IMG/VR virus record: IMGVR_UViG_3300023174_000134
Span: 1-64,000 of that record
Direction: 5' to 3' (one strand)
Length of the DNA stretch: 64,000 nt
Origin: a virus
The notes beneath the pieces were generated by a model. That model was not told where the DNA came from and did not search any database. It saw nothing but the letters and a program-made list of their open reading frames with translations. The translations under genes were made by a program, and so were the position numbers. Position 1 is the first letter of the stretch. Each line of letters starts with the position of its first letter. Below are positions 42,444 to 58,366 of this stretch, piece by piece.

Positions 42444-42575
42444 TTACTTCTTCTTTTCTTCTTTCTTCACTTCAGCTTTTGGTGCATCTTTCTTTGCTTC
42501 TTCTTTCTTAGCAGGTGCTTGAGCAAATGCTGTTACAGCGAAAGTTGCAGCTACGAGAGCGATTAGTTTTTTCAT
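42444..42575 (-). CDS. Exported Ala/Lys/Glu-rich small protein
   Basis: 43 residues. A clean signal peptide (MKKLIALVAATFAVTAFAQA, cleavage likely after AFA) is followed by a mature part made almost only of Ala, Lys, Glu and Pro (PAKKEEAKKDAPKAEVKKEE). TTGGAG precedes the ATG. Such proteins are common in Burkholderiales genomes (my recollection), so this could be host-derived. Function unknown. Directly downstream of the tmRNA gene. Confidence 0.75.
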   Translation of the reverse strand: MKKLIALVAATFAVTAFAQAPAKKEEAKKDAPKAEVKKEEKKK

Positions 42576-42732
42576 GTTAAACTCCAATTAAAGTTGATAA
42601 TATAATCAGTTTGTCGCTATCAATCAGACCAAGATATCAAAGCAAGGATATCGGGAACTGTACCAAGCAAAGACTTACTAATTTGTGGTGAGTATTCTGT
42701 TACGAGGAACTCACCAAAACCCTAAGCAGTTT

Positions 42733-42765
42733 TTAGGCTGCTAATGCGAACTTATTATCGTTTGC
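42733..42765 (-). other. tmRNA tag reading frame (ANDNKFALAA)
   Basis: Resume codon GCA at 42763-42765, then AAC GAT AAT AAG TTC GCA TTA GCA GCC and TAA. The AND start and ALAA end are standard for proteobacterial proteolysis tags; the form is betaproteobacterial in style. Confidence 0.9.
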
Positions 42766-42851
42766 GTTTAATTTAATTTAGTTATTACGCCTACTCTGGC
42801 GACTCTCCATTGTTCTAATGATTGCCATGTCGAATCTATAACACCCCCATC

Positions 42852-42917
42852 AAAAGTATATTGCCACAACTATAATGTGTGTTTGCTACCGATAACTCGG
42901 TTCGTCAATATACTTTT
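42852..42917 (-). other. tmRNA intervening-sequence stem
   Basis: A perfect 12-bp inverted repeat (42852-42863 with 42906-42917) closes the intervening segment between the CCA end and the coding piece, bringing the two ends of the acceptor stem together. Host processing enzymes would be expected to remove the loop. Confidence 0.85.
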
Positions 42918-42969
42918 GGTGGAGGTGGGCGGATTTGCACCGCCGTCCACAACAACTTTCAAACAACTT

Positions 42970-43089
42970 CTACGAATGCTTAGCTACAAAAACAAGAACC
43001 ACAAAAATTACTAATGCAATTGCACACGCACCAGTATAAAATGCAAAACTTCTAATCTTCTTTTCTTTTACACAATTCTTATCTGGCAT
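42970..43089 (-). CDS. 39-residue membrane protein overlapping the tmRNA 5' end
   Basis: MPDKNCVKEKKIRSFAFY is followed by one membrane helix (TGACAIALVIFVVLVFVA) and AKHS. It starts in a TAATG overlap with the 41-residue gene. Its last codons and stop (TAG at 42970-42972) lie within the conserved start of the tmRNA acceptor piece, so the last part of the message doubles as structural RNA. Function unknown. Confidence 0.55.
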   Translation of the reverse strand: MPDKNCVKEKKIRSFAFYTGACAIALVIFVVLVFVAKHS

Positions 43090-43214
43090 TATAGATAATT
43101 CCCTAAAAACCAAATGATAAAAAGTAAAGATAGGCCACCAGCTAATATCTTTAAGGCACCAATCTGTCTTTCATTTTGCTCTGGTGTGCAGAGCTTCTTC
43201 CAATATTTATTCAT
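43089..43214 (-). CDS. 41-residue membrane protein
   Basis: MNKYWKKLCTPEQNERQIG, then a membrane helix (LKILAGGLSLLFIIWFLGNY). It is translationally coupled (TAATG) to the 39-residue gene and is the first gene after a consensus early promoter at 43221-43249. Function unknown. Confidence 0.55.
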   Translation of the reverse strand: MNKYWKKLCTPEQNERQIGALKILAGGLSLLFIIWFLGNYL

Positions 43215-43220
43215 ACAGCT

Positions 43221-43249
43221 ATTATACACCTATTTTAGTTATTTGTCAA
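43221..43249 (-). promoter_or_regulatory. Consensus sigma70 promoter (TTGACA-N17-TATAAT)
   Basis: -35 at 43244-43249 and -10 at 43221-43226 on the minus strand, both perfect. It overlaps the last codons of the exonuclease gene and would transcribe the two small membrane genes, the tmRNA and the exported protein early in infection. Confidence 0.85.
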
Positions 43250-43909
43250 GTAATATTTGGCAATATACTGTTTTAATTGAGGCAGGTAAGGTTGTTTATC
43301 CCTCACAAATATCTGTGGTTTGCCTTCTTCAACGGCAATTGCCACTACCAATTTATTTATTGGTTTGCCTGTTATTTCACCAAACATTTCTGCATATGCC
43401 GAGCATTGCATAAAGTAATTGAGAATACCATCTTCCCATTTCTCTTTACTAGAGGTCTTAAAGTCAATGACTGCCAATTCTCCATCCCACTCAGCGATAC
43501 AGTCAACACGGCCAGCGATTTTCAGTCCATCAGAATATAGTGCCTGTTCTAATGAATAGATTTTACCAATATTTTGGTCTAACTCTGGCCTCAACTGTAA
43601 AAACAATTCTTTAATGTTTGGCATCATTGTTTGCATCCTCAATTCATTCATCTCATTGAGTAAATACTTTTCACAAACGGTGTGTAATGCGGTACCACGC
43701 CTTGATGCCTTACCAGAAACTTTATTGGCTTCTTCATCACCCACACGAGCACGCCATTCTAAGATAGCTTTCTTATTATAGGTTGACAATACGGTTGTAA
43801 CCGATGGGTATGAATTACCATTCGGTGTTTTGTATTGTCTACCACTTTCTGTTGTAACTGCTTCTAAATCAAAATCTAATTCAGGTAATTTAATGTGCTC
43901 AAATGTCAT
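43235..43909 (-). CDS. PD-(D/E)XK exonuclease (RecB/Cas4-like)
   Basis: 224 residues. SYPSVTTVLSTYNKKAILEW and GKASRRGTALHTVCEKYL form the N-terminal part with the conserved RGT..H motif of RecB-type nucleases. GLKIAGRVDCIAEWDGELAV then IDFKTSSKEKWED is the catalytic D...DxK core, and YFMQCSAYAEMF the QxxxY motif. Probably a DNA end-processing nuclease used in recombination or host DNA degradation. Overlaps the upstream gene by four bases. Confidence 0.85.
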   Translation of the reverse strand: MTFEHIKLPELDFDLEAVTTESGRQYKTPNGNSYPSVTTVLSTYNKKAILEWRARVGDEEANKVSGKASRRGTALHTVCEKYLLNEMNELRMQTMMPNIKELFLQLRPELDQNIGKIYSLEQALYSDGLKIAGRVDCIAEWDGELAVIDFKTSSKEKWEDGILNYFMQCSAYAEMFGEITGKPINKLVVAIAVEEGKPQIFVRDKQPYLPQLKQYIAKYYLTNN

Positions 43910-58292: not shown

Positions 58293-58366
58293 TGGTGCCC
58301 CTTGATGGAATCCAACCACCAATCCATGATTACAAATCAAGTGTTATAGCATTTAACTAAAAGGGC
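58293..58366 (-). tRNA. tRNA-Thr (anticodon UGU)
   Basis: Acceptor GCCCTTT/AAGGGGC (one G-U), D arm GTTA-AATGCTA-TAAC, anticodon arm CTTGA-TTTGTAA-TCATG (one mismatch) with UGU at 58332-58334, T arm GGTGG-TTGGATT-CCATC, discriminator A and encoded CCA. 74 bases. It lies at the end of the plus-strand islet but on the opposite strand. The loops are atypical (see findings). Confidence 0.85.

Follow-up and report, generated by a model that had tools for sequence, protein, structure and literature searches.

The window analysed here, a stretch of 64,000 nucleotides of DNA from a T4-like phage, carries a two-piece tmRNA gene that is complete and intact. The unusual part of this gene is the intervening segment (IVS) between its two pieces, which is more than a passive spacer, viz. 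an RNA module that is conserved, and which was missed in an earlier note on this DNA. The cores of such IVSs constitute a large set of swappable phage RNA modules that is apparently undescribed. As an explanation of the whole, we consider it likely that the gene specifies a working two-piece tmRNA, with an IVS that combines a processing frame and a functional small-RNA core.

Identification of the permuted tmRNA gene

The earlier note, made from the sequence letters, had placed a circularly permuted two-piece tmRNA at positions 42600-42990 of the minus strand and had named covariance models and ARAGORN as the means of checking it. These analyses agree with the assignment: ARAGORN calls a permuted tmRNA with the tag ANDNKFALAA at 42642-43009 (-), and two Rfam models are matched far above their gathering thresholds, viz. 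RF04321 (tmRNA_permuted; 121.7 bits versus a gathering threshold of 47, E 3e-23) and RF01850 (beta_tmRNA; 120.6 bits versus 84, E 3.5e-36). In the alignments with both models the order of the segments, the acceptor helix, the TTCGAC and the position of the tag are all as in the models. The individual elements of the gene, all on the minus strand, were located by exact match. The piece containing the T-arm, the 3' strand of the acceptor (CACCTCC), the discriminator A and the encoded CCA (42917..42948, with its 3' end at 42917; also seen by Rfam) precedes the 5' element and the tag in the gene, which is the permuted order. Next to it lies the IVS (42849..42916), as defined by folding and exact match, which would be absent from the mature tmRNA and consists of a closing stem and a core referred to below as type A. 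A predicted RNase P site, where we infer cleavage, is at 42849/42848. The mRNA-like piece then begins with the 5' element, consisting of the acceptor strand GGGGGTG and the TTCGAC (42829..42848; Rfam and exact match), and its first hairpin (GTCGCC..GGCG), in the PK1 region, is placed by the Rfam alignment at 42788..42803. A resume codon and a tag with a hydrophobic proteolysis end are present, the frame ANDNKFALAA plus stop (42733..42765) being the same from ARAGORN and from exact match, and the same as that read previously. Nothing points to the altered peptide tagging that had also been suggested, as the tag has the usual ALAA terminus. The sole other tRNA-like gene called in the window is a tRNA-Thr(UGU) gene at 58293-58366.

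The two pieces are joined by an acceptor helix of 7 bp, GGGGGTG/CACCTCC, with the G3-U70 pair, as the earlier note had described, and this pairing is borne out among the viral relatives. In a scan of viral contigs, for which one acceptor side was fixed as GGGG[A/C]TG and the partner position was left free, a compensating partner is present in all 120 of the tmRNAs listed (GGGGATG/CATCTCC in 81 and GGGGCTG/CAGCTCC in 39), which indicates that the permuted tmRNA structure is more than chance. Of 265 extracted permuted tmRNAs, 238 yielded a tag frame that begins and finishes in the usual manner; this and the other viral counts refer to the matches listed, in contigs that are uncultivated and partly redundant. 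The tag ends in ALAA in 192 of these 238, and the remainder end mostly in RLAA, RIAA, LMAA and similar sequences. In Maribacter phage Panino (L163:1449-1781), where a permuted tmRNA is matched by RF04321 at 62.2 bits, the tag called by ARAGORN, GKVMNVSFAPTVRQFA, is unlike a normal degradation tag, and the acceptor piece has CTCCACTA instead of CCA.

A gene for SmpB was found neither in the source record nor in 20 large viral contigs with permuted tmRNAs, and the phage tmRNA would thus depend on the SmpB of the host. The lack of SmpB in these phages could also be read as showing that the tmRNA acts against trans-translation in the host, as a decoy or an inhibitor that titrates SmpB, and is not a rescue RNA, and there is a precedent for this in the tRNA-like fragment of mycobacteriophage DS6A, for which SmpB titration has been proposed (PMC11915505, PMC4131195). 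However, unlike DS6A, the gene described here keeps a full mRNA-like piece and an intact degradation tag, and in most of its relatives the tags end in LAA; a decoy of this kind is, in our view, quite improbable.

Genomic context and relationship to known tmRNAs

The source record is a viral fragment of 81.5 kb, in which a gp59 helicase loader of the T4 type and proteins of the baseplate wedge are present, in agreement with the T4-like setting given in the earlier note. As tmRNA is normally a bacterial gene, one may ask if a bacterial sequence was mis-binned as phage. However, the gene is flanked by the T4-like replication and baseplate genes, it has many viral relatives, and the tmRNAs of the cultured phages Mosig and Melnitz occupy a similar place near a PD-(D/E)XK nuclease gene, so that mis-binning can be practically dismissed. 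In the window the nuclease gene in question (phrog_298, a PD-(D/E)XK exonuclease; 43235..43909, minus strand) adjoins the tmRNA.

A sigma-70 consensus promoter, TTGACA-17-TATAAT, which the earlier note had suggested as the promoter of the tmRNA, lies at 43221..43249 (-), and the tmRNA and two small ORFs follow downstream of it. Its match to the consensus is 12/12, although such a match alone is no evidence of function, and it is also seen upstream in the close relatives L005 and, in part, L004. The two small ORFs, of 41 aa (43089..43214, minus strand, between the promoter and the tmRNA) and 39 aa (42970..43089, minus strand, with its end abutting the acceptor piece), both have a hydrophobic stretch. 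Directly downstream of the tmRNA there is a Lys-rich ORF of 43 aa with a signal-peptide-like start (42444..42575, minus strand). None of these three ORFs has a PHROG assignment. The 43-aa ORF is also found in L004, L005 and L018, other genes occupying its place in L006, L012 and L022, and a search with its protein for a clue to the host gave no plasmid match. In another relative, L010, the opposite-strand sequence downstream of the tmRNA reads by eye like a homing-endonuclease-type gene.

The tmRNA gene itself is of an already known kind, as two-piece tmRNAs of phages have been reported before. The tmRNA of Melnitz, an OM43 myophage, was described in 2022, and in the same work 53 of 133 unique phage tmRNA structures were two-piece, marine or aquatic phages being the source of 50 of the 53 (PMC9004378). 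A tmRNA database of 2025 holds 79 bacteriophage sequences. The tmRNAs of Melnitz (a Methylophilales phage) and Mosig (a Pelagibacter phage) are, similar to that in the window, permuted, phage-borne and provided with an A+T-rich stem closing the IVS. However, they match the alpha model and carry other IVSs, whereas the tmRNA in the window matches the beta model and carries the type A junction. Melnitz also differs in that its IVS is longer and a glutamine riboswitch lies just downstream of its tmRNA (L160 46398-46446), whereas RF01739, the model of this riboswitch, has no match in the window. The permuted form is further shared with Stenotrophomonas phage Marzo, Xanthomonas phage Rb1, Maribacter phage Panino and Synechococcus phage BUCT-ZZ01, and in Marzo and Rb1 the closing stem ends in TTGAT or TTTGAT, but the IVS cores and tags of all four differ from those of the window. 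Some hosts of these four phages belong to groups with a one-piece tmRNA of their own. Since RF01850 also matches the tmRNAs of Marzo (94.6 bits) and BUCT-ZZ01 (94.5 bits), a match to the beta model does not name the host, and the betaproteobacterial source proposed in the earlier note is left unsupported.

A conserved three-way junction within the IVS

The IVS of the window is 68 nt long, as had been read previously, and its closing stem reaches 12 bp only when A42917, the last base of the CCA, is taken as the first base of the stem. It folds at -19.3 kcal/mol (z -4.25), and none of 200 shuffled sequences folds as well. The consensus IVS of the beta model RF01850 is about 30 nt, whereas that of the window holds in addition a covarying junction, viz. 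the type A core at 42864..42905 (-). As seen in the alignment of this core and its covariation, it forms a three-way junction, ACGAACCGAGUUAUCGGUAGCAAACACAC..GUUGUGG, in which the joining strands (ACGAACC, GGUAGCAAAC and GGC) are near-invariant while the stems covary. RNAalifold predicts the same junction unaided from the alignment. Among 22 distinct type A sequences, 93.8% of the cells are paired and changes on both sides are seen at 10 of the 20 pairs, and none of 500 shuffles scores as high on four of the five measures. When the partner strand is slid along the alignment, the number of pairs with double changes drops to 0-2; relatedness of the sequences inflates the covariation counts, but it is retained in this slide control.

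The type A core was also seen in one setting only. All 58 of the viral matches listed in a scan for it lie inside tmRNA IVSs, with none outside a tmRNA, and an exact-match scan of 84,980 bacterial and archaeal genomes, run without a positive control, found no occurrence. Over 54 loci, the mean identity of the IVS is 0.84, which is similar to that of the T-arm (0.82) and the tag (0.82), whereas the rest of the mature tmRNA shows 0.64-0.69; conservation at the level of the T-arm is not what one would expect of a segment discarded in processing. However, recent recombination could spread one core and inflate its apparent conservation.

Some known RNAs were considered for this segment. Rfam gives no match above gathering for the type A core, and an identity with a known riboswitch or ribozyme was rejected on these grounds, as the only hits were low-scoring microRNA noise on the palindromic stem. 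The same stem explains some weak opposite-strand matches of the type A model. The glutamine riboswitch of Melnitz was likewise rejected, for besides its absence from the window, its position in Melnitz is outside the IVS, downstream of the tag.

One frame and many exchangeable cores

The closing hairpin of the IVS recurs in the viral relatives as a constant frame. In the 265 viral permuted tmRNAs the IVS ends in TGAT in 251 and starts with AAAG in 237, counts that are partly set by the search patterns; before the frame-specific scan, the TGAT end was already present in 131 of 143 IVSs. This frame is not universal, as three related tmRNAs with the tag ANDNWYYEDYRLAA (L017, L021 and L027) have an IVS of 25 nt without a long closing stem in two cases and of 159 nt in the third. 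Possible small ORFs, in which the ATG follows a stretch rich in purines, are seen in this IVS of 159 nt (L021) and in the long IVS of Melnitz (L160:46065-46222).

Within the one constant hairpin frame, the 167 distinct IVSs hold about 81 classes of cores, a number that depends on the clustering thresholds. There are 78 pairs of loci in which the flanks are near-identical but the IVS class is different (e.g. L076, L095, L156), one of which (L017/L027) is a clustering artefact from short IVSs that are 96% alike, and 121 pairs in which the IVSs are at least 80% alike while the flanks are at most 70-75% alike. The occurrence of different cores in the same flanks and of the same cores in different flanks indicates that the cores have been exchanged between tmRNA backbones. 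No Rfam family match specific to an IVS was found in the scan of loci with the scanned IVS classes. A T-arm-like hairpin, e.g. GAAGGTTCGATTCCTTC, is present in 3 of the 81 core classes (c13, c43 and c79; in L198, L205, L106 and L272), where 0.01 classes are expected from shuffles; a tRNA-derived origin for all cores was rejected, as the hairpin is confined to these three.

Information on bacterial alleles comes from a comparison sample of four genes only, viz. the permuted tmRNAs of Cupriavidus plasmids. Their IVSs are of about 31-32 nt, and in three of the four (L295-L297) the IVS is GAAGCACATTGCAC..GTGCGCTTCTGAT or a close variant, i.e. the frame hairpin of the phages with the core absent. 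Thus, the frame is not phage-only and is probably a processing device, and within this small sample the long cores are probably a phage elaboration. The same three alleles have the acceptor GGGCCTG/CAGGTCC, and in L295 and L296 the tag called is ANDEKFALAA, which is among the commonest phage tags in the set. A second exact-pattern scan of prokaryotes, which required TGAT and a gap of 41-71 nt, gave no match; it had no positive control and, since short bacterial IVSs fail this pattern, it should not be interpreted as showing that the frame is absent from bacteria.

These results have to be weighed against a simpler interpretation, according to which the gene is an ordinary phage two-piece tmRNA and the core does no more than cap a processing hairpin, a passive role for which any compact fold suffices, its apparent conservation being due to recent recombination among phages. 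That the one frame accepts some 80 unrelated cores, that core-free alleles exist on the Cupriavidus plasmids and that cores move between backbones are all in accordance with such a cap. The same applies to the folding of the cores by themselves, which across classes is barely better than that of shuffled sequences (mean z -0.48), so that, in terms of energy, most cores taken singly lack strong stability. However, a passive cap does not lead one to expect that the junction bases of type A are kept while its stems change by compensation, or that compensatory double changes occur in IVS classes 1 and 3 as well. Class 3 also keeps GAGACAUNAGAAAC both in tmRNAs and in spacers between tRNA genes, although the scan pattern for this class itself fixed most of the motif. 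We therefore regard the passive cap as possible but rather doubtful, and the reading of the core as a functional small RNA is the one followed below.

Related cassettes between phage tRNA genes

Cores of this kind are not limited to tmRNA genes. A scan for the class 3 core, together with inspection of the loci, gave at least 36 sites, of which 29 are in tmRNAs and 7 are elsewhere, most of the latter beside phage tRNA genes. When the frame seen in these tRNA arrays (AAAAACACAYT..RTGTGTTTCTATATG) was used for a scan, at least 132 elements, 99 of them distinct and falling into 60 classes, were present among the matches listed. A tRNA gene is called directly upstream of 99 of these 132 cassettes, and in 97 of the 99 it is exactly 3 nt away; directly downstream, a tRNA gene follows 64 of the 132. 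At least 8 distinct tRNA-array elements share a core with the IVS classes c3, c11, c68 or c74, the closest being 96% alike over 45-49 nt. The type A core of the window is absent from the tRNA-array elements listed, and the IVS of the window matches the definition of these cassettes by architecture only, i.e. a frame hairpin with a variable core between a CCA and the 5' end of the next tRNA or tRNA-like sequence.

In regard to known RNAs, Rfam searches of a sample of the tRNA-array loci gave no match to a cassette among the matches listed, and one tRNA-array element searched against cultured phages had no match. T4 encodes in its tRNA cluster the stable RNAs C and D, which are small RNAs of unknown function. 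The cassettes resemble these by description only, both being small phage RNAs among tRNA genes, and by description they are set apart from them by the constant framing hairpin and the many classes. GOLLD RNA (RF02032) is likewise a phage-borne structured RNA found near tRNAs; it is present in L202, and in L354 (2633-3189, 202 bits) it ends just before a tRNA-array cassette, a permuted tmRNA also being present in this locus at 812-1112. However, GOLLD is a different family with a model of about 400 nt, and no scanned cassette or IVS matches RF02032. No description of such IVS modules or tRNA-array cassettes was found among the open-access papers retrieved, which is weak evidence of their novelty.

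The tRNA genes next to the cassettes bear on a further alternative, in which RNA-targeting defences of the host (e.g. anticodon nucleases) are drawn to the IVS core as to a decoy or sponge, and the hypervariability of the core reflects an arms race. Among the 99 upstream tRNAs listed, 67 are tRNA-Lys(UUU) and 17 are tRNA-Gln(UUG), versus 138 and 86, respectively, of the approximately 2,000 tRNAs in the same loci. This distribution is in accordance with a defence decoy, as are the many exchangeable core classes and the T-arm-like hairpins that three of them contain. However, the bias towards tRNA-Lys, and similarly that towards tRNA-Gln, may in part come from the frame sequence that was used as the query, and we consider a defence decoy an unlikely explanation of the cores.

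Proposed processing and significance

On the reading favoured here, viz. a working tmRNA with a functional core, a single transcript, probably starting from the promoter at 43249-43221, would contain first the T-arm/CCA piece, then the IVS and last the mRNA-like piece. The IVS would fold into the 12-bp hairpin, and the CCA end and the GAU leader of the 5' element would thereby come to face each other. A cut by RNase P at 42849/42848, together with 3' processing to the CCA at 42917, would then release the IVS, while the two mature pieces would be kept together by further pairing in addition to the 7-bp acceptor helix. After charging with alanine through G3-U70, and with the SmpB and ClpXP of the host, the tmRNA would rescue ribosomes on broken mRNA by adding ANDNKFALAA, and its role in infection may be to keep translation going on such messages. 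The constant frame hairpin is the probable processing device, and tRNA arrays would offer an equivalent slot, in which a CCA is followed by frame, core and frame and then by the next 5' end. The core would most likely be a small RNA that is freed by tRNA-type processing and has a selected function of its own; that it may be an RNA directed at a protein or a nuclease is a guess.

A broader proposal, which we put forward tentatively although we regard it as quite conceivable, is that the gaps between tRNAs or tmRNA pieces serve phages as expression slots. The frame would let the tRNA-processing enzymes excise exchangeable small RNAs, of which well over a hundred unrelated classes would pass from tmRNA genes to tRNA arrays or back and would have their effect on the host, perhaps to counter RNA-cutting defences.

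By itself, the tmRNA gene lengthens a known list by one phage. However, if the result for the IVS holds, then what a permuted gene discards is itself a conserved RNA, and with the recurrence of the slot in tRNA arrays the small RNAs of phages would include a large class that is uncatalogued and carries its own mechanism of release. The questions of why lytic phages keep permuted tmRNAs, and of what else tRNA arrays encode, would then become testable. The reported frames suffice for searching any phage genome for such modules.
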